Shown here piece by piece: positions 6,718-59,172 of a stretch of 64,000 nt of DNA (positions are counted from its first letter, which is position 1; every line of letters starts with the position of its first letter). The DNA is from Prosopocoilus inquinatus (Eukaryota > Arthropoda > Insecta > Coleoptera > Lucanidae). Location of the stretch: assembly GCA_036172665.1 (NCBI GenBank), contig CM069872.1, positions 24,742,001 through 24,806,000 of the forward strand. Reading direction: 5' to 3'. Below the pieces are notes generated by a model that was given only the letters and a program-made list of their open reading frames with translations, searched no databases and was not told the origin of the DNA. The position numbers were made by a program, and so were the translations under genes.

Positions 6718-9700
6718 CTAATCTGTAGAACTAGGATCTGATTTAAGATCTTGAATATGCCAGACGCCTTTGGGCTCATCATTTTCATTTACTAGTTCGT
6801 AAGTTGTTCGTGACAATTTCTTCTTAATAGTGAAAGGTCCGATAAACTTAGGGGCAAACTTAGCCGCAAAATAATCAGCAGCGCTAGATAAAACAAAATT
6901 TTTCCTCCAAACCTTTTGCCCAACATTATATTCTAACGGACGTCTCCTCAAATTGTAAAGACAACTATTTTTCTGGTAAGCTTTCTCAAGGCGAACTCCT
7001 ACTTCAGAATAGATCTTTTCAAAACCTTTTGATCTCAGTCTAACACGATTCTCATTTCGATCGAACTCTAGATCATTTAATTGACCTACATTCAATGACG
7101 CATACTCTTCCCCACTTAGAACATGTTCTCGACCAAAATTCAAGTAGTAAGGAGTATAGCCAGTGACCTCATGTTTCAATGTTCGAATTGCACAAGATAC
7201 GGAAGGTAAAAACTGATCCCAAAGTCTATGGTTATCCTTCACATATGCAGATAGCATAGTTTTTATAACACGGTTTACACGTTCAGTTGGATTATTCTGA
7301 GGGTGATACAAAGCATTGAACAACACTTTTACTTTATATTTCTGGATTAAGTTTAGAAAATCCTTGCTTTTGAACTGAACACCGTTATCACATATTAAGT
7401 ACTGAGGCACTCCAAATAAAAGAAAGACACTATTTTCGACATCCTGAGAAATTATTTTCGCAGTAGCAGATTTCAAAGCAAAAGTTAAAATGAACTTACT
7501 ATAATAATCGGAAATAACTAAAATAAAGCGATATCCCTTGGTGGACTTAGGAAGTGGACCTAAAATATCCATACTTATCATTTGAAAAGGCTGCGAAATT
7601 TTTGGACGTGAACCCATGAAATCCGGTTTTCGTTGCTGAAGAGGCTTTTGTTCAAGACAAACTTTACAACGTCGAACATAGTGCATAACATCGGCTTTCA
7701 TCCGTGGCCAATAATACCGCTGACAAAGTTTATGATAGGTCTTATACATTCCAGCATGACCTGTGGTTGGAGTTTCATGAGTATATTTGAAAAGTTCACT
7801 TCGATTATCTTTCGGAACAACTATTTACCAGTAATCTGATTCAGAAGCTAATTCTACAATTTTACATCGGACATATTTATGCAATACACCATTAACCACT
7901 CTCCAGTTAGAAAACTTTATAGGATCATCCAAAATTTTTGTTCGCATAGACAAATACCACTTATCGGAAGAATTCTCGAAATTTACAATAAAATTTGGAG
8001 TAGGATTATTAGCATCAATAACTGGGACGGATCTTGAAAGGAAATCTGGAACTACATTTTCTTTTCCTTTTCTGTGAACAATATCGAAACTGTATTGTTG
8101 TAGTTTTACAGCCCATCTACACAATCTACCCGAAGGATCTTTTAAATTTTTAAGCCAAATCAAGGAATGATGATCGGTTTCAACCGTGAAATGTGAGCCT
8201 TCTAAATATGGTCTGAGTTTATCAAGAGCCCACACTACCGCTAAACATTCGCGTTCTGTGGTCGAAAAATTTCTTTCAGCTTTACTTAAGGATCTACTTA
8301 GATAACTTATGACTCGTTCGCCTTCTAGTAATTTTTGCAACAGTACCGCACCCAAACCATAAGCACTAGCATCTGTTTGTACGTAAAAAGGATGACTAAA
8401 ATCAGGGCAATTGAGAATTGGAGCACTCACTAAAGACTCTTTAAGTAAATTAAAAGATTGGTCACATTCAGGTGTCCACAACCATTTATGTGTTTTATGT
8501 AACAATTTGGTAAGAGGCGCTATGACCATAGAAAAATTAGGAACGAACTTTCGGTACCATGAACACATACCAACAAATGAACGAATATCCGAAACACAAG
8601 TAGGTGTGGGTACATTAAGAATAGAGGTCACCTTATCGGGATCCACACATAAACCTTTTTGATTAACAATGTAACCGAGATATTTTAATTCAGAACGGCA
8701 AAATTGACATTTGTCTTGACTGACAGTTAAACCAGCTTCAACAAGGCGATTAAAAACCTTTTCGAGAATCTCTAGATGTTGTTCAAAGGTTTGTGAAATG
8801 ACGATAATGTCGTCAAGATAGACGAAAACGAAAGGTTCTAAATCGGCTCCGATAACGCGATCAATTAACCTCTGCCAAGTGGCGGGAGCATTGGTTAAAC
8901 CAAAAGGCATCCTCTTAAAGTGAAAAAGACCCCTACCTGGAATGGTAAAGGCAGTTAACTCACGACTACTTTCCTTCATAGGAATTTGCCAATGCGCACT
9001 TTTAACATCCAAAGAGCTTAAATACTTAGCACCACGTAATCGATCTAAAATGGAAGACATGTATGGAAGGGGGTACGCATCTTTTTTTGTCACTTTATTA
9101 ACTCTACGAAAATCTACACAGAAACGATGACCACCTTCTTTTTTTGGTACAAGTAATATGGGAGAAGACCATGCACTTTTAGATGGTTCCACTATATCGC
9201 TCGCTAACATATTATCTAACTCTTTGTTTATTTGTGCTTGGACAGCTGGAGAAACAGGATAATATCGTTGCTTTATGGGTTCAGAATCAGTTTTGATTTC
9301 ATGTTCAACAAGATGTGTACAACCCAAAGACTGACCCATTATATCCAATTTAGTTTTGAGAAAAGTATTAAGACATTCTTGTTCTAAAGAAGTTAGTTGG
9401 GAAGTTGGGATGACATTAACGCTGTTCAGCTTAACTGATGGTGAAAATTTCCATACACTTTTACTTAAATCTGGCACAATTCCTACAATTTTCCAAAAAT
9501 TGAGTCCCAAAATTATATATTCACAAACATCAGGTAATACCAGAAAATTAATCAATTTTATTGTATTTTCCAGCTTCACCGGCAATGTAACAGAACCTAT
9601 ACTTCTACATTTGTCACCATTTGCTACTGTACAATCAGGAGCATCTTCACTATTTAAGTAGCAACCGAATTTACCAATAATGGATCTGGTAGCACCAGAA

Positions 9701-9969
9701 TCTAATAACCCCAAAAATGATTTTCCAAAAATAGAAATCTCTAAGAATGGACGTTCATCTCCTTCTCTCTGTGCAAACAAGAAATCCAGAATGACTTTAT
9801 TTTTATTAAATCGTTCTTCCTGAACAAAATTTAAATTATTCAAATAATAGGTCGAATTGGAAATAACTCTGGAAGACACCACACGACCGTTTAATGTCTT
9901 CTGTTCACGTTTCCCGAACAACTGGGACAATTTCTTGTAATAACATTTGGCTTTCCGCATCGATAACAA
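6718..9969 (-). pseudogene. pol: Gypsy-A pol (protease-RT-RNase H-integrase), one in-frame stop
   Basis: This is the polyprotein that cuts Gag and copies and integrates the element. The first open part has 714 codons: protease with a DSG active site at residues 90-92, reverse transcriptase with YLDD at 384-387, and RNase H with TDAS at 532-535. A TAA at 7825-7827 interrupts the frame, and the same frame then continues to 6718. That second part carries the integrase HHCC finger (YYWPRMK followed by CKVC), a D,D35E core around SDYYSKF, CDNGVQF and TERVNR, and a chromatin-side C-terminus. The 5' end overlaps gag by 79 nt in another frame, which suggests frameshifted translation. Apart from the one stop the length is normal for Ty3/gypsy. 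Confidence 0.85.
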
Positions 9970-10966
9970 TGCATGCGTTTAGGTTGATGGTATCTAGATG
10001 AGACATGACCTATTTGATTACAATTCCAACATTTAACCCTGCTTAAACCAGAACTCGAAGAAGTACTGATCTCAGAGATTGGACAAGAATTAATACCAAT
10101 ATTCGCCAAATCAGGTTCTAAGTCACCACGACTTTTAGAAGGGGGTTTGTAATTATCTGCATTAAATTTACGAGTTTCTAAAATTCTACAATATGATTCC
10201 AACTGTTCTAATGAAGTAACTTCAGTTACTCCCAAATTTGCTTGAAGATAAGGAGAAAGATTGCGCAACACAAGTTTTAACTTCTGTTCCTCAGATAAGG
10301 GTTTCGATAATCTATTAAAAAGATTAGTTAAGACTGCTATATAAACTCCGATTGTTTCATCTGCACCCTGAGTTCTGCGTTTAATCTCATCAAGAAGCTT
10401 ATCGTCGTAATCGACCGGTTGAAATTCGAGTTTAAGAGCTTCAGCTAAAGATACCCAATCATAACATTTTGATTTTGCTGCACGAAACCACACTAAAGCT
10501 CTCCCTGTAAATAAGTCTAAAGCAGAATCAAATAATTCTTCCTCAGAAATGTGACGAGCAATTCGTAATTCCTGAACCCTTTCTAGAAAAGCACTCACCG
10601 ATAAATCTCTAGGATTTCCCGAAAATCTAAGTCCCCACTTTTGAACAGGTACAGGTTTAATATTGGATACTACACGAGTTGTTGCATCTAATTTATCGAT
10701 CAAGACGGAGTCAGTGTTTAAGGAACCAAAATCTTTTAACTTGGCTTCAAATAACGCAGGAAGATTGATAACTTCAGAAAATAATGCATTTTAACTCTTA
10801 GCTTGTTCATCATTAGAGGTCGGAATACGATCTACACGATTTATTAAATGAGCGAGACCTGTACTAATTTTAGAAATACTTGGTTTATCCTCTGACTTCA
10901 AAGAACTAATTAAAGCAGCGACCTGTTGAATTTTTTCTGAAACTGACTTAATTTCACTATCATGAC

Positions 10967-13110
10967 TAGAGACCGGATTTATAAGTTTTTACAAGTTTTT
11001 TACGCTAACATACCTAAACTTGGCGTTTTGTATTTATATGTTTGTCGATTAGAGAAGCCCAAAAATGGTAGTTTTATTTCGCATATAACTTAATATTTTA
11101 GACTTTTAGCGCATATTTATTTATTTATCCATATATTGATATAAATAACATTATAATTCCATATACGGTCAATATTCAAGTCTGCAGCTTTTCCAAGAAG
11201 TAATTTATTCTTCTCAACGTCTGGCCACTTTATTTTACGATTTCCCGGAATGTGATTTTCTGGGAATCTGTAGCGACCTGCACTTGCATTTTGCACTTAT
11301 GTTTTGCATTTCAGTTTGAGATAAGAACTCCGTGAATGTGTGTGACTAGTGACTAGTGTATTTATCAACGCGAATTAGTTGTTATTTTCTTATTTAATTT
11401 AAAGACGAAATAAATTCAGTGCTTATCTTTTCAAAATGCCGAAAGTAGCATCCTCTCGATCCGAGCTATTGAAAAAATGGATTAAAGCATCTAAACATCT
11501 AACTACAGATGGAAAAGTTATTTTTTGCAACGCATGCTCAAAACAGGTAGATACCTTACAAATTCTCTTAAAAATCACATTTTCATTTTGACAATATTTT
11601 AAGGTGTCGTCAGACCAAAAGTACCAGATTGATCAACATTTGGCTACAAACCTCCATAAGGAGTCGGAGAAAAGATGTGTGTCTAACTTTAAGCAATCTT
11701 TTATTTCTTCAACAGCCAGTAACTCACAGGGCAGTGACACAGGAAATGAATTCTTTTTAGACTTGTGCAGTGCTATGGCAGAGTCAAACATTCCTTGGCA
11801 TAAACTTGAACAAGCAAGTTTTCGAACTTTTTTGGAAAAATATTGCAATCGTCATATTCCAAATGAATCGACTTTGCGGAAAAACTATCTAAGTATATGC
11901 TACCAGCAACGGATGAAGAAAATAAGAGAGAAGCTTAGCGACAACAATATTTATATAGTAGTTGATGAAACGACAGATGCCTGCGGTCGTTATGTAGCAA
12001 ATATGTTAGCAGGAGTATTAAGCAACACAGTTGCACCAATATCTTATTTGGTAAATAGTGCAGTTTTGAAAAAAACAAATCATTCAACGATCGCACGTTT
12101 TATTAACGACAGCTTGACACTTTTATATGCACCTAATCAAGTTAAATCGGAAAATATATTACTAATGGTGTCTGATGCAGCAGCCTACATGATAAAAGCA
12201 GGACAGGCTTTACAGGTGTTTTACCCAAATCTGATGCACTTCACTTGTATGGCTCACACAATGAATAGGCTCGCTGAATTGGTGCGACTAGAATACCCAA
12301 CAGTAAATAAGTTGATCAATAACGGAAAAAAGGCGTTTCTTAAAGCCCCACAACACTATAAAGAATTAGCTGCTGACCTGCCATTACCACCAGAACCAAT
12401 AATTACGAGATGGGGTACGTGGCTTGAAGCAGCAAATTTTTACGCAGATAACTTTAAACAATTAAAGGAAATTTTCTTGGAATTGGATGATTCCAATTCA
12501 GCGGCTTTAAGAATTTGTAAGGAATGCATGTCGAACACAAACATCGGGAATCAATTAGCATTCATTAAAACTCATTTTTCGGTTTTAATATCCACCATTA
12601 AAAAGTTGGAATCATCCCAGACGGCTCTATTAGATTCTTTTGAAGTGGTCGATGATGCAATTGAAAGTATAAAATCAATTCCAGGGGAGATAGGAGAGAA
12701 GTTAATGGCAAAATTAGACAAGGTTCTATTACGTAATCCTGACTACAATAAAATGAGGAAAATCTGTTTAGTTTTAAAAGGTCAAAGTGAAGAGGATTTG
12801 GACATGGACCCCAAAGATGTAGCATCCATGAAATTTGAGCCCATTACTTCATGCGATGTCGAGCGTTCGTTTTCCTCTTATAAAAATATTTAAATAATTT
12901 AAATCAACTGTTGATTATATTTTGTAATCCTACTATTTAAGTGTTAAGTGTTAAAATTACTTATATGAAACAATTTATGTTTTTATTATTCTAAAGTATG
13001 TATAAGTAAAATAAAATTTTTATCGCATATAATATCCATATTTTGATCCATTTTAATCGCATAAAAAAACTTATTTTCCACTTTTTTAGCACATATAAAT
13101 CCGGACTTTA
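10967..13110 (+). mobile_element. hAT transposon, copy A (defective), inside Gypsy-A gag
   Basis: A 2144-bp element flanked by an exact 8-bp duplication ATCATGAC (10959-10966 and 13111-13118), the hallmark size for hAT. The ends are TAGAGACCGG and, on the other strand, TAAAGTCCGG, both followed by ATTTATA. It is a near-identical relative of 22095-24276 but 38 bp shorter. The difference is a 9-bp in-frame loss near 12348 and a 29-bp loss near 12890 that removes the end of the transposase. Confidence 0.9.
11436..12893 (+). pseudogene. hAT transposase, copy A, C-terminally truncated
   Basis: Exon 1 (11436-11546, 37 codons) starts at ATG and ends in frame. A 57-nt GT-AG intron (11547-11603) follows, and exon 2 runs from 11604. 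The first exon and the exon 2 start form one C2H2 finger (FCNAC, then two His spaced by five residues), resembling the CGGBP1-type finger. Next comes a DUF659-like block with VVDETTDACG and later VSDAA, which supply candidate catalytic aspartates. The C-terminal hAT dimerisation motif starts at CDVERSFSSY but is cut off by the 29-bp deletion, so about 28 residues are lost relative to the copy at 22266-23807. It probably cannot dimerise or transpose. Confidence 0.85.
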
Positions 13111-22094: not shown

Positions 22095-24276
22095 TAAAGT
22101 CCGGATTTATATGTGCTAAAAAAGTGGAAAATAAGTTTTTTTTATGCGATTAAAATGAATCAAAATATGGATATTATATGCGATAAAAATTTTATTTTAC
22201 TTATACATACTTTAGAATAATAAAAACATAAATTGTTTCATATAAGTAATTTTAACACTTAACACTTAAATAGTAGGATTACAAAATATAATCAACAGTT
22301 GATTTAAATTATTTGGGGTAAAATTTTGTCGTCTGTCTGTCAAAATATTTTTATAAGAGGAAAACGAACGCTCGACATCGCATGAAGTAATGGGCGCAAA
22401 TTTCATGGATGCTACATCTTTGGGGTCCATGTCCAAATCCTCTTCACTTTGACCTTTTAAAACTAAACAGATTTTCCTCATTTTATTGTAGTCAGGATTA
22501 CGTAATAGAACCTTGTCTAATTCTACCATTAACTTCTCTCCTATCTCCCCTGGAATTGATTTTACACTTTCAATTGCATCATCGACCACTTCAAAAGAAT
22601 CTAATAGAGCCGTCTGGAATGATTCCAACTTTTTAATGGTGGATATTAAAACCGAAAAATGAGTTTTAATGAATGCTAATTGATTCCCGATGTTTGTGTT
22701 CGACATGCATTCCTTACAAATTCTTAAAGCCGCTGAATTGGAATCATCCAATTCTAAGAAAATTTCCTTTAATTGTTTAAAGTTATCTGCGTAAAAATTT
22801 GCTGCTTCAAGCCACGTACCCCATCTCGTAATTATTGGTTCTGCTGGTAATGGCAGGTCAGCAGCTAATTCTTTATAGTGTTGTATACGCAGTGGGGCTT
22901 TAAGAAACGCCTTTTTTCCGTTATTGATCAACTTATTTACTGTTGGGTATTCTAGTCGCACCAATTCAGCGAGCCTATTCATTGCGTGAGCCATACAAGT
23001 GAAGTGCATCAGATTTGGGTAAAACACCTGTAAAGCCTGTCCTGCTTTTATCATGTAGGCTGCTGCATCAGACACCATTAGTAATATATTTTCCGATTTA
23101 ACTTGATTAGGTGCATATAAAAGTGTCAAGCTGTCGTTAATAAAACGTGCGATCGTTGAATGATTTGTTTTTTCCAAAACTGCACTATTTACCAAATAAG
23201 ATATTGGTGCAACTGTGTTGCTTAATACTCCTGCTAACATATTTGCTACATAACGACCGCAGGCATCTGTCGTTTCATCAACTACTATATAAATATTGTT
23301 GTCGCTAAGCTTCTCTCTTATTTTCTTCATCCGTTGCTGGTAGCATATACTTAGATAGTTTTTCCGCAAAGTCGATTCATTTGGAATATGACGATTGCAA
23401 TATTTTTCCAAAAAAGTTCGAAAACTTGCTTGTTCAAGTTTATGCCAAGGAATGTTTGACTCTTCCATAGCACTGCACAAGTCTAAAAAGAATTCATTTC
23501 CTGTGTCACTGCCCTGTGAGTTACTGGCTGTTGAAGAAATAAAAGACTGCTTAAAGTTAGACACACATCTTTTCTCCGACTCCTTATGGAGGTTTGTAGC
23601 CAAATATTGATCAATCTGGTACTTTTGGTCTGACGACACCTTAAAATATTGTCAAAATGAAAATGTGATTTTTAAGAGAATTTGTAAGGTATCTACCTGT
23701 TTTGAGCATGCGTTGCAAAAAATAACTTTTCCATCTGTAGTTAGATGTTTAGATGCTTTAATCCATTTTTTCAATAGCTCGGATCGAGAGGATGCTACTT
23801 TCGGCATTTTGAAAAGATAAGCACTGAATTTATTTCGTCTTTAAATTAAATAAGAAAATAACAACTAATTCGCGTTGATAAATACACTAGTCACTAGTCA
23901 CACACATTCACGGAGTTCTTATCTCAAACTGAAATGCAAAACATAAGTGCAAAATGCAAGTGCAAGTCGCTACAGATTCCCAGAAAATCACATTCCGGGA
24001 AATCGTAAAATAAAGTGGCCAGACGTTGAGAAGAATAAATTACTTCTTGGAAAAGCTGCAGACTTGAATATTGACCGTATATGGAATTATAATGTTATTT
24101 ATATCAATATATGGATAAATAAATAAATATGCGCTAAAAGTCTAAAATATTAAGTTATATGCGAAATAAAACTACCATTTTTGGGCTTCTCTAATCGACA
24201 AACATATAAATACAAAACGCCAAGTTTAGGTATGTTAGCGTAAAAAACTTGTAAAAACTTATAAATCCGGTCTCTA
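22095..24276 (-). mobile_element. hAT transposon, copy B (apparently complete), inside a Tc1 relic
   Basis: A 2182-bp element flanked by an exact 8-bp duplication GTTATAAG (22087-22094 and 24277-24284). Ends are TAAAGTCCGG (left) and TAGAGACCGG (read from the right). It is the fuller relative of the copy at 10967-13110, in the opposite orientation. The joined flanks restore a Tc1 transposase reading, confirming the insertion point. It is a plausible autonomous source. Confidence 0.9.
22266..23807 (-). CDS. hAT transposase with CGGBP1-like N-terminal zinc finger
   Basis: It would cut and paste the element by recognising the terminal repeats. Exon 1 is 23807-23697 (37 codons), the intron 23696-23640 is 57 nt with GT-AG ends, and exon 2 is 23639-22266, together 494 codons. 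Visible in order: a C2H2 finger formed across the splice (FCNAC plus HLATNLH), a DUF659-like block (VVDETTDACG), VSDAAAYMIKAGQAL, a conserved MHFTCMAHAMNRLAELV, an RWGTWLEA motif, and the C-terminal dimerisation segment with CDVERSFSSYKN and LNQLLIIFCN. No stop or frameshift is visible. The CGGBP1 link rests on the finger spacing only; the hAT assignment is firm from the dimerisation motif and 8-bp duplication. Confidence 0.8.
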
Positions 24277-38788: not shown

Positions 38789-39033
38789 TGTGGCGCGCCA
38801 CCCAGCTCACTACGTCAAACTGAAGGCGTCAAGAAGTCGGTTCGTTATGCGTCATTGGCTGCCACGCCTCCGGGGTCTATACCGAACAAACTAGACTTTT
38901 CCAGCGATGGAACAGACGAGAAGGCAGCGTAGAATATAAAATCGGCCGGGGTGGACTCAGGAGTCAGTCGAGTTCTAATTAGCGATCGTCGAAGTTGGAT
39001 TTAGTGTGTAAATAAATTGTTGCAAATAAATTA
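38789..39033 (+). repeat. 5' LTR of Gypsy-D, truncated
   Basis: Begins TGTGGCGCGCC. It contains a TATAAAA box near 38937 and AATAAA near 39011. It matches 44583-44827 and then stops, although the 3' LTR goes on for another 83 bp. The missing piece would include the LTR end, and the PBS is absent too, so a deletion joins the LTR directly to gag coding sequence. Confidence 0.75.
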
Positions 39034-39035
39034 AA

Positions 39036-40334
39036 AATTTGGACGAGAAGTTTCAAGAACACTCTGGAAATTTAGAGAAAAAGCTTCTAGAACAATCTGG
39101 AAATTTCAAGGACGAACTTCGAGAACAATCCAGAAATTTGGACCAGAAGTTTCAAGAACAGTCTGGAAATTTAGAGAAGCTTCGAGAACAATCCAGAAAT
39201 TTAGAAGAAAAGCTTCTAGAACAATCTGGAAATTTCGACAAATTACAAAATAAATTGTTGGAACAATCTAGAGACTTAGACGAGAAATTTAGAGAGCAAT
39301 CCAGAAATTTCGACGAAAAACTTCTAGAACAGTCCGGAAATTTGAAGGGTGAATTTCTAGAACAAACGAAAGGACTCTAAGATAAACTAGTAGTAAAAAT
39401 ATTGGAAGAAACAAGAAACCTGCAAGGAAATGTGGAGGAAATAATATTCCAGCAGGATAACAAAATCAAGAATCTGGAACAAATCATGGCGGGGTTGCGA
39501 GTGTTCGGGGATCAGCCAACAGTAGAAACACTAGAAGATAATGAAACCCGAACTGTGGAAGGACCAGCAGAAAATTCGAAATTGAAAATAAAACCACTAA
39601 CATTCGATGGAAAGTCTTCTTGGCCCAACTACTTCAAACAGTTCGAAGCAGCAGCAAAGGCGAACAGATGGACGGCCAGCGAAAAAGCCACTTCGTTAAT
39701 TGTGGCCTTGAGAGGGGACGCTATCGATGTGCTACAGACGATGCCGCCAGAGGAACAAGAAGACTTCGACAAGCTGGTGAATAGGATAGAAATGCGTTAC
39801 GGACAGGCCCATCTGACCGAGGTATACCATGCGCAGTTGAGGAATCGCTGTCAGAAATCCGGAGAAAGTCTTCAGGAATTCGAAGCGGACGTAGCGCGTC
39901 TGGCCCAGTTGGCATATTCCACAGCTCCTGTAGAATTCCTCAAATGTTTGACGGCGCAGACCTTCATAGATGGAATCCGTGACCCAGACAACCAGCAGGC
40001 ATTGACAATGACCCATCCGAAGACGTCCAAGAACGCATTGGCTTATGCCTTGGAATTTGAAGCGGCCAGACGAGTTTAAAGAGGGCATGTCAATGTGCGA
40101 GCGGCTATGAACTTCCAAGAGGAAGAAGAGGAAGAATTCGCTAACTCCAAGGTGGGATCTGCTATAAAGGAGCGACCCAGGGAATATGCCACCGCCGACG
40201 ATGTTCGCCGCATTGTGGAACAGGTCTTCAAGCAGAAGAAGCCGCTGGTGTGTTGGAATTGCCAGGAGGAAGAACATGTTCGCAGGCGATGTCCAAAGCC
40301 CAGACAGGATCCAAGGAATCCACAGTTAAACTAA
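39036..40334 (+). pseudogene. gag: Gypsy-D gag with hendecad coiled-coil repeat
   Basis: One reading frame with two nonsense codons (TAA at 39378-39380 and 40077-40079). Residues 1-114 are about ten repeats, mostly 11 residues long, of the pattern xEKLLEQSGNL (variants LREQSRNL, FQEQSGNL), predicted to form a long coiled coil. The DNA beneath is a 33-bp minisatellite (39036-39377). The capsid follows (LTFDGKSSWPNYFKQFEAAA, then LRNRCQKSGESLQEFEADV), and last a CCHC knuckle, CWNCQEEEHVRRRC at about 40252-40293. The start codon is lost in the 5' deletion; the first visible codons are LDEKF. Confidence 0.8.
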
Positions 40335-40961
40335 GCCGGGTCGGTGCAGAGGGGCGAACGATGATCCGTATTCAAAGGCCCCCAAAGACGAAATCCAAAC
40401 AAGTAATATCCCTACGGCAGTTAACCAGCAGTGTCTTCGTGGATGTTACCATTGATGACATTCCTTACACCATGTTATTGGATACGGGTGCGACAAAGAC
40501 CATCCTAAGACCAGACGTCATTAAGTCATCTGGACGCACCGAGCCGACCAAGTGAAGACTGAAAACTGCAACTCGGACATCAGCAACTGTCCACGGTGAA
40601 GTAGAGGTTATCATCAGCATTGGTTCAACTCCAATGCACAACACAATGCAAACACCGTGCACTAGTGACAGACATAGAGGACGAGGCAATTTTGGGGATG
40701 GACGTCATGTGTGCCCACGGGTTCCAATTGGACTTAAAGCGTGGCGTGATGGCGGTCAATAATGAGGAGTTGGTTCTACATCAACGAGGAGACGTGGCCG
40801 CTCGAGTAGTCCTCGCTGAAGACGTATTACCCAGCAGGACTGGGTTATCGTCGACGCAAAACTGGACGGTGTTTTTCAAGATGGGCAAGTCATTATGGTT
40901 GAACCTAATACTGATGATCAAAGGATTGGAAGAGGAGTCCTCGTTGGGAAAATGTTGTTGA
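40250..40961 (+). pseudogene. Gypsy-D protease region
   Basis: A frame overlapping the end of gag reads TSSVFVDVTIDDIPYTMLLD followed by TGATKTILR, the aspartic protease active site (DTG). A stop at 40553-40555 and a frame change follow. 40620-40961 then reads DIEDEAILGMDVMCAHGFQL, the distal ILGMD strand of the same fold. Confidence 0.75.
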
Positions 40962-40990: not shown

Positions 40991-42760
40991 ATGAACGTCA
41001 ATTGTTTCTCTGTCAATATCAAGAAAGGAACAATCTTGGGAAGCTGCACCATGGTGTCCTCCATCTCCCGCCAACTTGAAGCAAACGTGCCAGAAGCAAA
41101 AGTCCAAACGAAATTATGGGAGATGGTTATGTCAACAACCCAGGAATTGACTCCAGACCAGAAGACAAAAGCAAAGAATCTGATCGACCGCTATCAAGAT
41201 GTATTCGAGGTAGAAAATGGATCCAAGGGAAGAACTGATGTCGTGAAACACAAAACAGAGACTGGAGAAGAAAGATCTATCCGTCAAGCTCCAAGGCGAT
41301 TACCGTTGGCGAAGCGTGAGGAAGCGGAACGCATTATTCGCGAGATGGAAAAGGATAATGTAATAGAACCATCAAGCAGCCTTTGGGCGTCACCAGTAGT
41401 GCTTGTGAAGAGGAAGGATGGGTCCACCAGGTTCTGTGTAGACTACCGGTTATTCAACAATGTCACCAAGAAGGACAGCTATCCCCTGCCACGGATTGAT
41501 GATACCCAGGACACCCTGGCCGGCTCAAAGATATTCTCAACTTTGGACTTAAAGAGTGGATATTGGCAAGTGGAGCTGGTGCCTGAAGATCGAGAAAAGA
41601 CGGCGTTTTCCATTGGTATGGGTCTGTGGCAATTCACAGTGATGCCATTCGGGTTATGTAATGCCCCAGCGACATTCGAGAGGTTAATGGAGACGGTTCT
41701 GAAAAGTCTGTCCTGGACAACGTGCATGGTGTACCTTGACGACATAATTGTCGTGTGAAAGACGTTCGACGACCACCTAAGGAACCTGGACGGAGTGTTC
41801 CAGCGGCTTTGCGGAGCTGAACTAAAGCTTAGCCTCAAGAAGTGTCACCTGTTCCAGAAGGAAGTGAATTACCTGGGGCACATTGTTAATGGAAATGGAA
41901 TCGCCGTGGACCCTGTGAAGATTCAGGTGGTGAAAGACTGGCCAACTCCCAGAAATAAACACCAAATAAGGAGTTTCCTTGACCTGTGCACTTACTATCG
42001 GCGCTACGTTCCTGGATTTGCAGACATTGCTAAGCCGTTAACAAAACTCACTGAAGAAGGTCGTCCATTTGAATGGGACCAACAGTGTCAAATTGGCTTT
42101 GAACAACTAAAGCAATACTTGATTAGTGCTCCTATTCTGAGTTATCCTCTTCCGGAAGGCAAATTCGTCGTGGACACAGATGCTAGCAACGTTGGGATTG
42201 GTGGCGTACTCTCCCAGATACAAGAGGGGCAAGAGAAGGTGATCGGCTACTTCAGTAAAGTCCTATCAAAGCCGGAACGAAACTATTGCGTCACAAGAAG
42301 GGAATTGCTAGCCGTCGTAAAAACGATAGAACACTTCTACAAGTACTTGTATGGTAGACGCTTCCTGCTGAGGACCGACCATGCCGCTCTAAAATGGCTT
42401 CTCCGTTTCAAGAACCCAGAAGGGCAAGTTGCACGATGGATCGAACGACTTCAGGAGTACGATTTTGAAATTCAGCATCGGGCAGGAACTAGCCATCGAA
42501 ATGCCGATGCTCTGTCGAGAAGACTCTGTGTCAAAGACTGTAAGCACTGTAGTCGTTTGGACGAGAAAGTAGCCACGACTGCGAGGACAGCCATTGTTGA
42601 CGACAAATGGCAAGGCGAAGAACTGCGAAGAGACCAGGAGAACGACCCGGATTTGAAATTAGTGCTAGAATGGAAAAACAGGGATGCGAGACCTACCTGA
42701 GAACAGGTAGCACCATGTGCACCGTCCGTAAAATCATACTGAGCGCAGTGGGACTCCATA
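40991..42760 (+). pseudogene. Gypsy-D reverse transcriptase and RNase H
   Basis: The RT shows SSSLWASPVVLVKRKDGSTR, FCVDYRLFNNVTKKDSYPLP, motif A TLDLKSGYWQV, MPFGLCNAPATFERLM and the catalytic VYLDDIIVV. A TGA at 41756-41758 directly follows that motif, and the same frame resumes to 42700. The continuation has the connection LDLCTYYRRYVPGF and the RNase H with VDTDASNVGIGGVLS, YCVTRRELLAVV and RTDHAALKWL. Further in-frame stops at 42698-42700 and about 42738 precede the integrase. Confidence 0.85.
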
Positions 42761-43982
42761 GTGTTGGATCGTGGTCTTCTGAGACGAAGCGTAGAGAATC
42801 AGGAAGGCATGGAACAGAAGACACAGCTACTAATCCCCAAGAATAGGGTGCCAGAAGTTCTGAGGGAACTTCACGATGGAACTTCGGGTGGGCATCTGGG
42901 AATTAAGAAGACTATGGAGAAGGTGCGCGAAAGATTTTACTGGGTGAACTGCAAGGAAGACGCGAAGGATTGGTACAGAAAGTGTGCGGTCTGAGCAGCC
43001 AGTAACGGTCCCCACAGGCGGGGCAAGGCCCCCATGAAAAGTACAACGTTGGAAGTCGTTTTAGAGAGTTGCCATCGATGTAGCCGGTCCGTTTCCAGAA
43101 ACGAATGGTGGAAACAAGTACATCGTCGTGGCAATGGACTACTTTAGCAAGTGGGTTGAAGCTTACGCCCTACCTAACCAAGAGGCAGTCACTATTGCGG
43201 AGGTCCTTGTCAGGGAATGGATCAGTCGGTATGGTGCACCTATGGAACTGCATTCAGACCAAGGAAGGAACTTTGAATCGGCATTGTTCAAGAACTTATG
43301 TACTCTGCTCGGCGTACGAAAAACTAGAACAACTGCACTCCACCCACAGTCGGACGGAATGGTGGAAAGGTTCAATAGAACCATCAACCGACATTTGTCC
43401 AAGGTCGTTTCCGATCATCAGAGGGATTGGGACAGGTACATTCCCCTGTTCCTAATGGCATACCGCTCGTCCGTTCATGAGACAACAGGGGAGACTCCAG
43501 CGAAAGTGGTATTTGGGCGAGAGCCGAGACTGCCCTGCGACCTGAAGTTTGGTGTGAAGCCTGGCGAAGTCTCTGCCGACGAAGATTACGTGAGCAACTT
43601 ACGCAGGAAAATGGACGACATCCACAACCAAGTGCGTCACAATATACAAACGGCCAGCGATCGGATGAAGGAGCACTATGACATCAACGCTCAACACGGG
43701 GGATACCAACCTGGAGCACTGGTCTGGCTTTATAACCCCCAAAGACGTCGAGGCCTCTCCCCAAAATTACAGACCTCTTGGGAAGGTCCTTACAAAGTGA
43801 TGAAACGGATCAACGACGTCGTTTACCGCATCAAGAAGGTCCCCCATGGCAAACCCAAAGTAATCCACTTCAACCGGATAGCCCCTTACCATGGAGAAGC
43901 AGATGAAGGGACAGTACAAAGGGCGCAAGTTTCCGAAGTGAACTTCGAAACCTTCATGTCTCATCACGCCGAAGGAAGCAAG
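42761..43982 (+). pseudogene. Gypsy-D integrase
   Basis: The HHCC finger has both His (LHDGTSGGHLG) and the first Cys, but the second Cys codon is TGA (42992-42994, KCAV then stop). A frame change follows near 43060-43128. The catalytic core in the open frame from 43128 has AMDYFSKWVEAY (Asp at residue 4), LHSDQGRNFE (Asp 44) and GMVERFN (Glu 80), exactly DD35E. The C-terminal domain contains GALVWLYNPQRRRGLSPKL and HFNRIAPYHG, ending about residue 256. The reading frame runs on without a break into the macro domain. Confidence 0.85.
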
Positions 43983-44435
43983 GCACGGTTTGGAGTGACC
44001 ACGGAGAAGCAACAAGATCTCTTTAAAGTGCCACTGCAGTACAGTCTGGCCCTCTGCGTAGCAGAAGACCTGAAAATGTCCAAAGGAATCGCTCAGTTGT
44101 TTAGGAAGAAATTTGGCCAAATCGAGGAGCTCCGAAGATAGCATCCCGTGGTAGGCAATAGTCTGCAGATCATCGATTCGACGGCAGATCGGAGACGCCA
44201 CGTGCATTATTTAGTCACTAAGAAGACATCAAGCGGTGAACCTGACTATCAAAGTATGTGGAGAGCCCTATATAGCCTGAGGAGACAGCTAATAGAGAAC
44301 CACCAGATGAAGTTAGCCATCCCCAAATTGGGCTGCGGATTGGACGGACTAGACTGGAGAATAATTCGAAGCATGCTGGAAGTCATCTTCCACAGAACGG
44401 GAATTGAAGTCCTAGTCTGCAGCCACCACCCATAG
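43983..44435 (+). pseudogene. TARG1/OARD1-like macro domain at the C-terminus of Gypsy-D Pol
   Basis: About 150 residues in the integrase frame, after a linker of about 30 residues. They begin ARFGVTTEKQQDLFK and continue LALCVAEDLKMSKGIAQLF, with the phosphate loop GIAxLFRKKFG. A TAG at 44139-44141 replaces one codon. The same frame continues with VHYLVTKK, then LAIPKLGCGLDGLDW and IEVLVCSHHP to a TAG at 44433-44435. The layout follows human TARG1 (OARD1, C6orf130), about 150 residues, which removes ADP-ribose from acidic side chains and from DNA. As I recall, its catalytic Lys lies in the TKK segment and its catalytic Asp in the GCGLD segment; both are kept here. Whether the domain was expressed fused to integrase or released is unknown. 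Confidence 0.8.
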
Positions 44436-44465
44436 GCAATAGTCAGCAACAGCAAAACCGTGGAC

Positions 44466-44522
44466 TGCTACTTCTTCCAGACGGGAAGTTGCAAGAATGG
44501 GCCAGCATGTAGATTCTGACAC
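44466..44522 (+). pseudogene. CCCH zinc finger after the macro domain
   Basis: Continuing the same frame past the TAG at 44433-44435, the sequence has Cys, seven residues, Cys, five residues, Cys, three positions, His (CYFFQTGSCKNGPAC, then R, F, a TGA codon at 44517-44519, and H). The spacing C-x7-C-x5-C-x3-H is that of RNA-binding CCCH fingers. The TGA falls at a non-ligand position and could be a CGA-to-TGA decay product. Because the finger is short, it could be chance, but the conserved aromatic and Gly-Pro positions (YFFQTGSCKNGPAC) fit the family well. Confidence 0.6.
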
Positions 44523-44582
44523 CCTCCTTCAAGACTATCACCAGGAACGTTTCGAGACGAAACGTTTTTAAGAAGGTGGCAG

Positions 44583-44910
44583 CGTGGCGCGCCACTCAGC
44601 TCACTACGTCAAACTGAAGGCGTGAAGAAGTCGTTTCGTTATTCGTCATTGGCTGCCACGCCACCGGGGCCTATACCGAACAAACTAGACTTTTCCAGCG
44701 ATGGAACAGACGAGAAGACAGCGTAGAGTATAAAATCAGCCGGGGTGGATTCAGGAGTCAGTCGAGTTCTAATTAGCGATCGTCGAAGTTGGATTTAGTG
44801 TGTAAATAAATTGTTGGAAATAAATTATATTGTAAGCATTTTTAAAATACTGTTAAGTTTGTTACTGAGTGTTTTACTCAATTAAATTAATTAATTTAAA
44901 CCATAGAACA
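44583..44910 (+). repeat. 3' LTR of Gypsy-D
   Basis: A 328-bp LTR from GTGGCGCGCC (first base mutated from T to C) to AGAACA. It is preceded by the purine-rich TTTAAGAAGGTGGCAG. The outer border is set by the P2 repeat that resumes at 44911. It keeps the same TATA box and polyadenylation signal as the truncated 5' LTR. Confidence 0.75.
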
Positions 44911-54781: not shown

Positions 54782-54861
54782 TTCTAACTACTGATGATTT
54801 TTTATTGTTCTACATTACTAGAAAAATTTTGTGCAAATCGTTTTTGATTGCAGTGAAAACC

Positions 54862-54926
54862 TCGAGCAGCCTCTGGACAGCTGTTTCAGCACTGCTTGGG
54901 GCTTATTCACCAGAGACGTAGCTCGA
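54862..54926 (-). ncRNA. Degenerate hammerhead ribozyme (array unit 1)
   Basis: The core reads GGUGAAUA in place of CUGAAGA (positions 3 and 8 changed), and stem II has a mismatch. Stem III ACAGCUGU and stem I are kept. Activity is not expected. Confidence 0.7.
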
Positions 54927-55173
54927 CAATCCCACTGCAGACCAAAAACGACTTGCCCAATTTATTCGCAATTGCGATGTAAGAATGATGAACAGACAAA
55001 ACAGCGACATCTTACTATCGCTTTTTGACCTGACATTGCAGTAGGATAGACAAATTGAAGCGGGATTTGCTCCTAATAAGTCCCCTATGCAAGGCGGCCA
55101 TGCTTGCTGTCAAAGCATAATGAAAGTTTTTAGAAAAATTTTGTGCAAATCGTTGTTGATTGCAGTGAAAACC

Positions 55174-55238
55174 TCGAGCAGCCTCTGGACAGCTGTTTCA
55201 GCCCTGCTTGGGGCTTCTTCAGCAGAGACGTAGCTCGA
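55174..55238 (-). ncRNA. Type I hammerhead ribozyme (array unit 2)
   Basis: All core positions, stem I, stem II and palindromic stem III intact. Cleavage expected between 55188 and 55187 on the minus strand, 312 nt from that of the next unit. Confidence 0.85.
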
Positions 55239-55485
55239 CATTCCCACTGCAGACCAAAAACGACTTGCCCAATTTATTCGCAATTGCGATGTAAGAATGA
55301 TGAACAGACAAAACAGCGACATCTTACTACCGCTTTTTGACCTGACATTGCAGTAGGATAGACAAATTGAAGCGGGATTTGCTCCTAATAAGTCCCCTAT
55401 GCAAGGCGGTCATGCTTGCTGTCAAAGCATAATGAAATTTTTTAGAAAAATTTTGTGTAAATCGTTTTTGATTGCAGTGAAAACC

Positions 55486-55550
55486 TCGAGCAGCCTCTGG
55501 ACAGCTGTTTCAGCCCTGCTTGGGGCTTCTTCAGCAGAGACGTAGCTCGA
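55486..55550 (-). ncRNA. Type I hammerhead ribozyme (array unit 3)
   Basis: Identical in all core and stem positions to unit 2. Cleavage expected between 55500 and 55499 on the minus strand. With unit 2 it would release a 312-nt RNA. Confidence 0.85.
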
Positions 55551-55676
55551 CATTCCCACTGCATAGGGGACTTATTAGGAGCAAATCCCGCTTCAATTTG
55601 TCTATCCTACTGCAATGTCAGGTCAAAAAGCGATAGTAAGATGTCGCTGTTTTGTCTGTTCTACATTACATTTGTA

Positions 55677-56073: not shown

Positions 56074-59000
56074 TTAAAATCCAGCTTGATATCGGTCGGT
56101 GAATCGAACACGACGGCCGGATCTTGTTGAGAATTTGTTTGGCGGCTCCTCTAAGTCTGGTGCGTTCGAGTCACTGCCCGCTGTCTTCGAGCAGGTAGCT
56201 GCGGGGTCTAATCTATCGGCCTCAATATAGGCTGGTTTTAAACGGTCAATGGAGACTCGTATTTCCTTATCATTTATCTTTAGTTTAAAATTTTTATCAT
56301 TTCGCTCAATAACTTTGTACGGCCCGTCATACGAGGGTTGCAGCGGTCGTCTTACAGCATCGTGTCGAACAAAGACATGCGATATAGTATGCAGATCTTT
56401 GAAAACAAATATTTTTCTATTTTCGTGACGTGTTCCGGGCGTTGGTCGTAGAGAACGTAAACGGTTTCTAAATTGCTGTCCGTAGTCTGCCGTCAACTGC
56501 GCGGACTGAGAGCCGAAAAATTCACCAGGAAGTCGCACCGTCGATCCATACACCAACTCCGTCGTAGAAGCATTCAGGTCTTCTTTATGAGCTGTTCTGA
56601 TGCCGAGTAAAACAATGGGTAACACGTCGACCCATTTTTCTGTCTCGTGGCATTTTATGGCGGTTTTGAGTTGGCGGTGAAATCTTTCTACCATTCCGTT
56701 TGCTGCCGGATGGTACGCTGTCGTTCGTATGTGAGTCGCGCCTATTAATTCATTTAATTCTTTAAATAAACGTGACTCGAATTGACGACTCTGGTCCGTT
56801 GTAATTCGCAGGGTTACGCCGAATCTGGCTACCCATTGTTCCACGAAGGCTCGCGCCACCGTTGCGGCTTCGATGTCAGGGAGCTGTATTGCTTCAGGCC
56901 ATCTGGTAAAACGGTCTACGCACGTTAGCATGTAGCGAAAACCCCTGGAAGAAGGGAGCGGTCCCACGATGTCGATATGGACGTGCTCGAAACGGCCTGC
57001 GTCGTTCGTAAATGAACTGATCGGCGCTACAACATGACGAGAAATTTTCGCTCGTTGGCACTGTACACAGGATCGTGCCCATCTGCGGCAATCCAGGTTT
57101 ATCTTTGGCCATACGTATCGCTGAGTCACTAGCTTCTGGGAAGCTCGTACACCAGGATGCGACAAACAGTGAAAGCTGTTGAAAACCTGTCTTCGCAAAG
57201 CTTCGACAACGTAAGGTCGAGCTGTACCCGTGGATATGTCGCAGTACAAATCAGCGATATCGTCGGTCAACCTAATTTTCTTCAGCTGTAATCCGCTGTG
57301 TTTATCCTGTAGTAACTGCTTCAGCTCCAGGTCGTTGCGCTGAGCCGCGGCTAACTCTGTGCTGTTAACGGCGGTTGAGATTTCTTCGATTCGGGAGAGG
57401 GCGTCAGCTGCATCATTTTCATTCCCTTTTACATGACGAATGTCTGTTGTAAATTGGCCTATGAAATCTAGGTATCGGAACTGCCTTGGTGTGCACTTGT
57501 CTGGCTTTTGTTGAAATGCGAATGTTAGTGGTTTATGGTCATTATAAACCGTGATCGGTCTTCCTTCGATAGCGTATCGAAACCGTTTGATCGCGGCGTA
57601 CACAGCCAGAAGTTCACGGTCATAAGCACTATATTTCTTCTCAGCCGAAGTTACAGTCTTTGTAAAATACGCCAACGGTTGCCACGCGCTACCATTACGT
57701 TGCTGAAGCGTTCCTCCGATTGCGTAATCGGACGCATCCACCATCATCGATAATTGTGCTCCAGAGATCGGGTGTGCCAATAAAGCGGCGTTGGCTAGAC
57801 TGTCTTTGACGGCCGTAAACGCGTTTTGTGCTTCTCTTGTCCACAATACCGGCGCGTCTTTTCTTAGCGACCCGTGTAATAACGCGTTAAGTGGCTGTTG
57901 TAAGCGCGCAGCTTCCGGAATGAAACGACGGTAAAAATTTATCATTCCTAGAAAACGACGAAGTTCTTTCACTGTCTTTGGTTGCGGAAATTTGGAAATA
58001 GCTTCCACCCGATCGGGTAGCGGTTTCGTGCCACTTCTATTCACTAGATATCCTAAGAAACGCACTTCTTTTCGCCCGAACACACATTTGTCCGTGTTAA
58101 TCACAACACCGTACTCAGCAAGACGCTGAAATAACTGACGTAAATGTTGTTTATGTTCTTCAGCGTTTTGCGATGTCACCAAAATATCGTCTAAGTACGC
58201 GTAACAAAAATCTAGTCCCCGCAACGTTTCGTCGATAAATCGCTGAAAAGTTTGTGCTGCGTTTCTTAAACCGAATGGCATACGTGGGAATTCGTACAGT
58301 CCAAAAGGTGTCGTGATGGCTGTCTTTTCCACATCTTTGCTTGCTACCGGTATTTGATTATAAGCTCGCACTGAGTCGATAGTGCTAAAAACTTCCATCC
58401 CAGCAAGTCTATGCGAAAAATCTTCGATATGTGGAATAGGATATCTATCGGGAATTGTCCGGTTATTAAGCGCACGATAATCACCACACGGTCGCATTTC
58501 GTTGTTTTTCTTCGGCACCAGGTGTAGTGCTGAAGCCCAAGAACTTTTGGATGGTTGTATGACACCTTCGTGTAGCATCATTTTAAATTCGTCTTTCGCT
58601 AGCTGCAATCGATCTGGTGCGAGTCTTCTGGGCCGACAAAATATCGGTGGACCAGGTGTTGTATTTATGTGATGCACGACATTGTGCTTCACCGTATTTC
58701 CAGCACCTGTTGGGCGTGTGATTTCAGGAAAATCGAGCAGAATACTTTCGTACTCCGATCCTATTCTAATTGTTCTGACAGAGTTAATTGTAGTCCTTAC
58801 TTCGGAGCCACGCGTTGCCAAGTGGGTGGTATTGTCGAGTATTCGCTTATTACGAACGTCCACTGACAATCCAAAATACGAAAGAAAGTCTACGCCGATG
58901 ATGGGTTTGTCCACGTCTGCCACTACGAAACGCCACACAAAATCACGTCGCAATCCTAAATTTAAATTTAATACAATAGTCCCGTAAGTCGTAATCATGG

Positions 59001-59172
59001 ATTTATTTGCCGCATATAACTTATAGTTAGTTTTAGTCCTATTGCCGTGTGTCTTTAACCGAGGAAATACGCACAGATCAGCACCAGTGTCTACTAGAAA
59101 CGCAATTTTTGTTTTCTTATCGGTGATGTAAAGGCGGCGTGGTTTCGGGCCATCACTGTCTACCGCCATCAA
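56074..59172 (-). CDS. pol: Gypsy-E Pol polyprotein (intact)
   Basis: 1032 codons without interruption. Order: protease with DTG at residues 28-30 (FLVDTGADLCVFP), reverse transcriptase with FSTIDSVRAYNQIP (motif A), MPFGLRNAAQTFQRF and YLDD at 326-329, RNase H with MMVDASDYAIGGTL and YSAYDRELLAVYAAI, integrase zinc finger (HCLSHPGVR, CVQCQRAK), DD35E core (HIDIVGPLPSS, ITTDQSRQFES, NGMVERFHR) and a C-terminal region ending GRRVRFTDRYQAGF. Its start overlaps the gag stop in a TGATG arrangement at about 59170, so expression may rely on reinitiation or on a frameshift. It is the only complete Pol in the window and a candidate helper for related defective elements. Confidence 0.9.
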   Translation of the reverse strand: MMAVDSDGPKPRRLYITDKKTKIAFLVDTGADLCVFPRLKTHGNRTKTNYKLYAANKSMITTYGTIVLNLNLGLRRDFVWRFVVADVDKPIIGVDFLSYFGLSVDVRNKRILDNTTHLATRGSEVRTTINSVRTIRIGSEYESILLDFPEITRPTGAGNTVKHNVVHHINTTPGPPIFCRPRRLAPDRLQLAKDEFKMMLHEGVIQPSKSSWASALHLVPKKNNEMRPCGDYRALNNRTIPDRYPIPHIEDFSHRLAGMEVFSTIDSVRAYNQIPVASKDVEKTAITTPFGLYEFPRMPFGLRNAAQTFQRFIDETLRGLDFCYAYLDDILVTSQNAEEHKQHLRQLFQRLAEYGVVINTDKCVFGRKEVRFLGYLVNRSGTKPLPDRVEAISKFPQPKTVKELRRFLGMINFYRRFIPEAARLQQPLNALLHGSLRKDAPVLWTREAQNAFTAVKDSLANAALLAHPISGAQLSMMVDASDYAIGGTLQQRNGSAWQPLAYFTKTVTSAEKKYSAYDRELLAVYAAIKRFRYAIEGRPITVYNDHKPLTFAFQQKPDKCTPRQFRYLDFIGQFTTDIRHVKGNENDAADALSRIEEISTAVNSTELAAAQRNDLELKQLLQDKHSGLQLKKIRLTDDIADLYCDISTGTARPYVVEALRRQVFNSFHCLSHPGVRASQKLVTQRYVWPKINLDCRRWARSCVQCQRAKISRHVVAPISSFTNDAGRFEHVHIDIVGPLPSSRGFRYMLTCVDRFTRWPEAIQLPDIEAATVARAFVEQWVARFGVTLRITTDQSRQFESRLFKELNELIGATHIRTTAYHPAANGMVERFHRQLKTAIKCHETEKWVDVLPIVLLGIRTAHKEDLNASTTELVYGSTVRLPGEFFGSQSAQLTADYGQQFRNRLRSLRPTPGTRHENRKIFVFKDLHTISHVFVRHDAVRRPLQPSYDGPYKVIERNDKNFKLKINDKEIRVSIDRLKPAYIEADRLDPAATCSKTAGSDSNAPDLEEPPNKFSTRSGRRVRFTDRYQAGF

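Follow-up and report, generated by a model that had tools for sequence, protein, structure and literature searches.

TARG1 (also OARD1 or C6orf130) is an ALC1-like macrodomain hydrolase. As presented in PMC7050489, its targets are ADP-ribosylated proteins and nucleic-acid ends, and it has PARP1 as an interaction partner. The same account describes viral macro domains as countering antiviral PARPs and suggests that RNA ADP-ribosylation may help to recognise transposon-derived RNAs. The TARG1 catalytic dyad is given as Lys84 and Asp125 in PMC9411070, while PMC7050489 writes Glu125 for the latter residue. Among long terminal repeat (LTR) retroelements, macro domains have been described as additional open reading frames (ORFs) in fish epsilon-like endogenous retroviruses (Basta 2009, cited in PMC4977317), and a chromodomain at the integrase C-terminus is given as the hallmark of chromoviruses (PMC3605345). 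Here we describe a Ty3/gypsy LTR retrotransposon within a 64,000-nucleotide stretch of Prosopocoilus inquinatus DNA (hereafter the window). Positions 43983-44522 of the window encode a TARG1/OARD1-type macro domain followed by a CCCH finger, between integrase and 3' LTR. Among the titles and abstracts listed in searches of the open-access PMC literature, with repeat libraries and subscription papers outside the search, none reports a Ty3/gypsy element with a macro domain.

A macro domain and a CCCH finger behind the integrase

The translation of 43983-44522 in the integrase frame contains GIAQLFRKKFG, YLVTKK, PKLGCGLDGLDW and a finger of the form C-x7-C-x5-C-x3-H. For protein comparisons, stops in this translation were masked as X. 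The masked translation matches human OARD1/TARG1 (4j5r_A) with E=6.2e-27 over query residues 9-145, as well as 5m3i_A, by title a bacterial DarG macro domain (1.7e-4), and a CPSF4 finger (6.5e-4). Pfam zf-CCCH scores 23.6 bits on the window copy, above its cut-off of 20.5. A preliminary description of this stretch, made from its letters alone, had placed a TARG1-like macro domain and a CCCH finger in the integrase frame of a Ty3/gypsy element, and the matches bear out both domains. It had also counted two nonsense codons, whereas the frame contains three stops as far as 44522 (44139, 44433 and 44517), the last of them within the final spacer of the finger.

The Lys84 and Asp125 positions of TARG1 align in the window copy with YLVTKK and GCGLD, so that the two residues proposed earlier as catalytic are indeed kept. 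Among readable dereplicated proteins of the element, the Lys is kept in 26 of 27 and the Asp in 25 of 28 (49/50 and 48/51 before dereplication); copies in the P. inquinatus genome, the window included, have YLVTK in 51 of 51 and GCGLDGL in 50 of 51. An AlphaFold2 model of the natural homologue P0001 has a mean predicted local distance difference test (pLDDT) score of 87, lower in the finger and tail. It superposes on TARG1 (4j5s_C) with a template-modelling (TM) score of 0.96 on the target and 0.61 on the query, at a root-mean-square deviation of 1.3 Å. The top eight matches in the fold search are all TARG1 structures, with DarG next. A second model of the same query, from an element-only alignment, repeats the first with a near-identical order of strands and helices (pLDDT 81). 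Together, the sequence match and the fold match rule out a chance resemblance to TARG1. In a library of viral structures, VP8 of Kadipiro virus is the top hit (38% identity), and the hits that follow include virga-, negev- and flavi-like viruses named after thrips. By these models, the TARG1-type macro fold is also carried by other arthropod-linked agents.

The order protease (by motif only), reverse transcriptase, RNase H and integrase inside an LTR pair identifies the window copy as a Ty3/gypsy LTR retrotransposon, in agreement with the preliminary description. Its pol is broken across several frames, which marks it as a decayed copy. The features are as follows.

38790..39033, + strand: 5' LTR, identical to 44584-44827 at 233/244 positions
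39402..40079, + strand: Gag-like ORF piece (Pfam PNMA, E=0.0051, weak and under cut-off)
40251..40292, + strand: CCHC knuckle, C-x2-C-x4-H-x4-C (pattern scan)
40475..40492, + strand: LLDTGA, which we take to be an aspartic protease motif (pattern scan)
40991..41758, + strand: reverse transcriptase ORF piece (Pfam RVT_1, 2e-23)
41795..42700, + strand: end of reverse transcriptase and RNase H (Pfam RT_RNaseH, 2.8e-34)
43128..43886, + strand: integrase, partial core and C-terminal domain (Pfam rve, 1.8e-8; Integrase_p58_C, 8.5e-12)
43887..44006, + strand: linker with FxxFM...ARFGVT (alignments)
44007..44417, + strand: TARG1/OARD1-type macro domain, interrupted by the stop at 44139; copies under purifying selection
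44466..44522, + strand: CCCH zinc finger C-x7-C-x5-C-x3-H (Pfam zf-CCCH, 4.7e-5), with stops just upstream (44433) and inside (44517)
44550..44586, + strand: C-terminal FRDETFLRRW..., encoded by the LTR edge and what is probably the polypurine tract, resembling FRDETxLRRGQC in relatives
44584..44827, + strand: 3' LTR, identical to 38790-39033 at 233/244 positions

The integrase ORF of the window copy, in the ORF listing, spans 43128-44141, and the macro-CCCH frame runs unshifted beyond 44522 into the polypurine tract (about 44550-44586). In several relatives the protein finishes with FRDETxLRRGQC or a sequence near it. This C-terminal motif is probably the polypurine tract translated as protein, which would place the macro-CCCH part of these relatives directly before their 3' LTR. 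P0039, a natural relative, aligns with the window in a single match from integrase through macro domain and finger to 44594, at 60% identity. The Pfam hits of the window integrase ORF include no chromodomain, which rules one out at the integrase C-terminus. No clear target-site duplication was seen in the flanks of the window copy. Just inside the 5' LTR, a 33-bp tandem repeat (39012-39343) encodes in one frame an 11-residue, coiled-coil-like repeat resembling LEEKLLEQSGN, perhaps the start of Gag.

Copies, selection and relatives

Searches of the P. inquinatus genome covered 650 Mb. The 540-bp DNA search gave 1020 first-look candidates, of which 40 were scored. They comprise the window copy and 39 more, none of them over two bases short of full length, at 96-97% identity; one partial match was seen besides. 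A protein search with P0001 gave 1436 first-look candidates, and all of the best 150, which were scored, span macro domain and finger; their open frames measure 231 to 2230 codons. Of these 150, a sample that, being the best scoring, leans towards intact copies, 146 have either no stop or one TGA within an alignment running to residue 220-223. The TGA lies at residue 219, beyond the finger, in 29 of 30 fetched loci, and the remaining locus shows no TGA over the stretch that aligns. Twenty of the 39 DNA copies were picked by DNA similarity, and in 17 of them the 181 codons compared are free of stops and gaps, against three stops in the window copy. The macro-CCCH Ty3/gypsy family is thus high-copy in its own genome, where a decayed copy such as that of the window stands beside intact copies whose long frames end in the macro-CCCH part. 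The macro segment is present in other family copies, both in this genome and in other species. The preliminary description had considered a one-off read-through of flanking DNA, which the 39 further DNA copies and the 150/150 protein matches rule out.

An LTR edge is common to 28 of the 30 fetched loci. The sequences diverge after it, so the copies are separate insertions. The four bases right after the 3' LTR (L094-L123) could be read in 27 of the 30 copies and fit RTAY in 20 of these, with a background rate of 0.023. The family therefore has a strong local target preference for RTAY, as seen on the 3' sides of copies only.

Selection was measured over 181 codons of linker, macro domain and finger in two groups of copies. 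Group A holds 21 copies including the window, picked by DNA similarity, and group B holds 30 copies picked by protein score, a choice that may be biased. The ratio of non-synonymous to synonymous differences (pN/pS) is 0.27 within A, 0.19 within B and 0.14 between A and B, all family-level figures because the copies are closely related and their pairs non-independent. Leaving out one copy at a time gives between-group values of 0.138-0.146. Four control frames give 0.80-1.23 (A), 1.22-2.66 (B) and 1.28-1.72 (between). Variable columns number 25, 22 and 37 at the three codon positions. The contrast between 0.14-0.27 and 0.80-2.66 in the control frames rules out an unselected passenger. The macro-CCCH region is under purifying selection among copies of one genome, which answers the dN/dS comparison raised in the preliminary description and suggests that the element itself uses the macro domain and finger.

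A search with the macro-CCCH stretch matched 38 proteins among 145 candidates. Those named include proteins from Aromia, Brassicogethes, Gonioctena, Acanthoscelides, Macrosteles (annotated OARD1-like) and Contarinia (a host-like OARD1). The first four are beetles and Macrosteles is a leafhopper; the natural relatives named so far are nearly all from beetles, with one leafhopper besides. The integrase ORF matched 3067 of 3978 candidates, and among the matches listed (120 of 3067) are proteins of Harmonia, Diabrotica, Callosobruchus and Aromia with integrase, macro domain and CCCH finger. With the macro-CCCH part of P0039, 20 of 345 candidates matched, 11 of them from Molorchus minor. This search also gave P0159 (782 aa), which joins RNase H, integrase, macro domain and finger in one unbroken protein. 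Two Macrosteles quadrilineatus proteins named 'ADP-ribose glycohydrolase OARD1-like', P0013 and P0012, are close to each other; P0013 lies inside the element clade and starts with an apparent integrase end. Both are probably misnamed pieces of retrotransposon. An integrase protein of Araneus ventricosus, P0135, has a listed MOSC domain (PF03473), either a further capture or a fusion in the gene model.

A sequence profile finds the macro domain in 71 of 173 retrieved proteins. These were sorted into 54 element proteins, 14 host-like proteins and a trio (P0021, P0025 and P0027). The integrase C-terminal motif occurs in the same protein in 30 of the 54 element proteins; in the set dereplicated at 88%, this holds for 12 of 29. 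Among the 21 dereplicated proteins with a sufficient tail, 18 have the C-x7-C-x5-C-x3-H finger, 8 others being too short-tailed. Before dereplication the count is 30/39, with 15 more too short, and part of the extra exceptions look like frame-shifted gene models. The finger of P0039 scores 16.1 with Pfam zf-CCCH, under the cut-off. Over 75 pairs of natural proteins, mean identity falls from 0.66 in the integrase C-terminal domain to 0.52 in the macro domain, 0.51 in the finger and 0.41 in the linker; in the integrase core it is 0.51 (35 pairs, range 0.10-0.86).

TARG1-like macro genes also occur at 73 viral-contig loci (L001-L073), with at most 42% identity in full-length matches and 45% in two short ones. 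The integrase part of P0039 was found at none of these 73 loci (tblastn, E up to 1e-4). Only at L016 does the P0039 tblastn match extend into the finger region, at 35% identity. A scan of the genome-contig collection found no relative.

Origin of the macro domain

The macro tree was built from 75 sequences of at least 112 residues, including 9 of the 73 viral loci, which reduced to 56 rows. In it, 31 element rows, the window among them, form one clade with support of 91/81, under the star mark of the tool; support is 96/92 when P0021, P0025 and P0027 are included. Two members of this trio had been labelled element and one host-like before the tree. They adjoin the element clade and resemble single exons of an intron-bearing gene, and may lie near the host donor gene.

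The integrase tree was built from 116 sequences with a match of 170-319 residues, giving 90 rows. All 16 macro-bearing rows, including the window, fall within one clade of 25 rows (98/96). The nine other rows of this clade have tails of at most 45 residues, except P0059, whose 91-residue tail begins with linker and macro domain before the sequence departs. P0049, also in the clade, has a polypurine-like tail and no macro domain. It may be a true macro-less member, and the macro domain is not shown to be universal in the integrase clade. The 65 integrase rows outside the clade contain no macro domain; 11 of them have tails of 40-205 residues and the rest at most 27. With the macro domains in one clade and their integrases in one clade, the trees point to a single capture of host TARG1 by a Ty3/gypsy lineage.

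Elsewhere in the window are two more Ty3/gypsy-type elements, at 6718-10703 (- strand) and 56074-59172 (- strand), whose integrases match P0039 at only 27% and 33%; tblastn with P0001 found no macro part in either. Two ORFs, 11604-12893 (+ strand) and 22266-23639 (- strand), contain DUF659 at identical residues and profile range, and we take them to be perhaps copies of one DNA transposon. A 312-bp tandem repeat at 54819-55563 has 2.4 copies with 97% matches.

Possible roles and comparison with known systems

The element carries a selected and probably active ADP-ribosyl hydrolase beside its integrase. Our fuller reading is that an insect Ty3/gypsy lineage captured TARG1 a single time, in frame behind the rest of pol, and that the integrase brings with it, in the macro domain, a functional mono-ADP-ribosyl hydrolase. 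We hold this reading to be evenly balanced, and for it we infer translation, activity, substrate, RNA binding, processing and benefit. Host TARG1 coding sequence would have been acquired once, with the CCCH finger added in most branches. The macro domain would travel with the integrase, either fused to it or released by the protease. It would remove ADP-ribose that host PARPs have set on the integrase or nucleic acids of the element, or on chromatin where the element integrates, and the finger would keep the domain on element nucleic acid. Delivery of an eraser with the integration complex is favoured by the position of the macro domain and its frame on the integrase. Integration creates DNA breaks that are recognised by PARP1-type enzymes. 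We propose only tentatively that the hydrolase, covalently attached, takes off ADP-ribose that PARPs have added to the integrase, to chromatin or to the DNA ends where integration takes place.

Several observations weigh against this reading. Pfam Macro gives 17.7 bits on the window copy, under its cut-off of 22, although the TARG1 sequence match and the P0001 fold match are both strong and do not bear out the refutation that the preliminary description proposed. The finger is not universal, being absent from P0015 and degenerate in P0023 and P0004, the latter with its first Cys changed to Ser. Three of the 29 dereplicated rows have lost catalytic residues (both in P0043, the Asp in P0077 and P0026), and catalysis is therefore not required in every family. 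An earlier count of pN/pS, with other codon handling, was weaker, at 0.27 (A), 0.33 (B), 0.16 (between) and 0.39 (window versus A). The integrase ratios of that count (0.23, 0.81, 0.29 and 0.15) are not relied on, since the frame was unchecked and pairs more than 15% different were dropped as frame slips.

The losses of catalytic residues also bear on whether the macro domain erases ADP-ribose or reads it. A reader would tether the complex to ADP-ribosylated chromatin, PARP-active or damaged, and would choose or stabilise integration sites as a chromodomain might. The macro domain lies directly after the integrase C-terminal domain, the place where chromoviruses have their chromodomain (PMC3605345), and three dereplicated rows retain the domain after losing catalytic residues. 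However, the Lys/Asp pair is retained in most rows, and the sole site preference seen, RTAY in 20/27 readable copies, is local and could be given by the integrase alone; a reader seems to us unlikely. We attach a similarly low probability to a cytoplasmic counter-defence, in which the macro domain would strip ADP-ribose that antiviral PARPs put on element RNA or Gag, as macro domains of RNA viruses do. The preliminary description had proposed such a counter-defence or, alternatively, an action on DNA-linked ADP-ribose. A counter-defence would be consistent with the viral fold matches, which are led by VP8 of Kadipiro virus (38% identity) and include, close behind, RNA viruses named after thrips. 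It would also be consistent with PMC7050489, where viral macro domains work against antiviral PARPs and RNA ADP-ribosylation is suggested to aid the recognition of transposon-derived RNAs. The fusion to integrase points instead to the integration complex. Moreover, CCCH PARPs and ZAP are known from vertebrates, which also counts against such a defence.

A structural or nucleic-acid-chaperone role, with the macro domain a stable carrier and the nucleocapsid-like finger the selected part, would fit the 18/21 occurrence of the finger and its resemblance to the fingers of CPSF4. We consider it improbable, however, because the catalytic motifs are conserved, a CCHC knuckle is already present at 40251, and P0014 and P0015 join integrase to macro domain without a finger. 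The three stops of the window copy could be read as those of a passenger or artefact, whether flanking DNA read through or an unselected hitchhiker. With 39 more copies at 96-97% DNA identity, 150/150 scored protein matches spanning the region, relatives in several insect species and pN/pS of 0.14-0.27, the probability of this is very small indeed.

The element links ADP-ribosylation, a host signalling and defence mark, directly with an integrase, that of an LTR retrotransposon which has been successful. Its conserved and selected protein allows one to ask whether PARPs oppose insect mobile elements or are exploited by them. Some automatic 'OARD1-like' annotations of insect genes may likewise be pieces of retrotransposon.

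The element domain resembles TARG1/OARD1 in sequence (6e-27), in fold (TM 0.96) and in the positions of Lys84 and Asp125. Unlike TARG1, it is fused behind an integrase with a linker, usually has a CCCH finger and is mobile, and some families are without the catalytic residues. The 412-type Ty3/gypsy elements of arthropods are among the closest integrases outside the clade, many of those in spiders being annotated 'transposon 412', yet the 65 outside rows have no macro domain and most end soon after the integrase. Fish epsilon-like endogenous retroviruses are likewise LTR retroelements with a macro domain; theirs is described as an additional ORF, whereas that of the insect-type Ty3/gypsy element is in frame with pol. 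The insect domain is of TARG1 type and accompanied by a CCCH finger. LTR retroelements that have captured a host domain behind the rest of pol are a known kind, and in this element the captured domain is a probable eraser of ADP-ribose, with a CCCH finger beside it. Chromoviruses have their extra domain at the same integrase position, a chromodomain there and a macro domain with a CCCH finger here, and, if our reading is true, an ADP-ribosylation eraser would define this Ty3/gypsy branch as the chromodomain defines chromoviruses.
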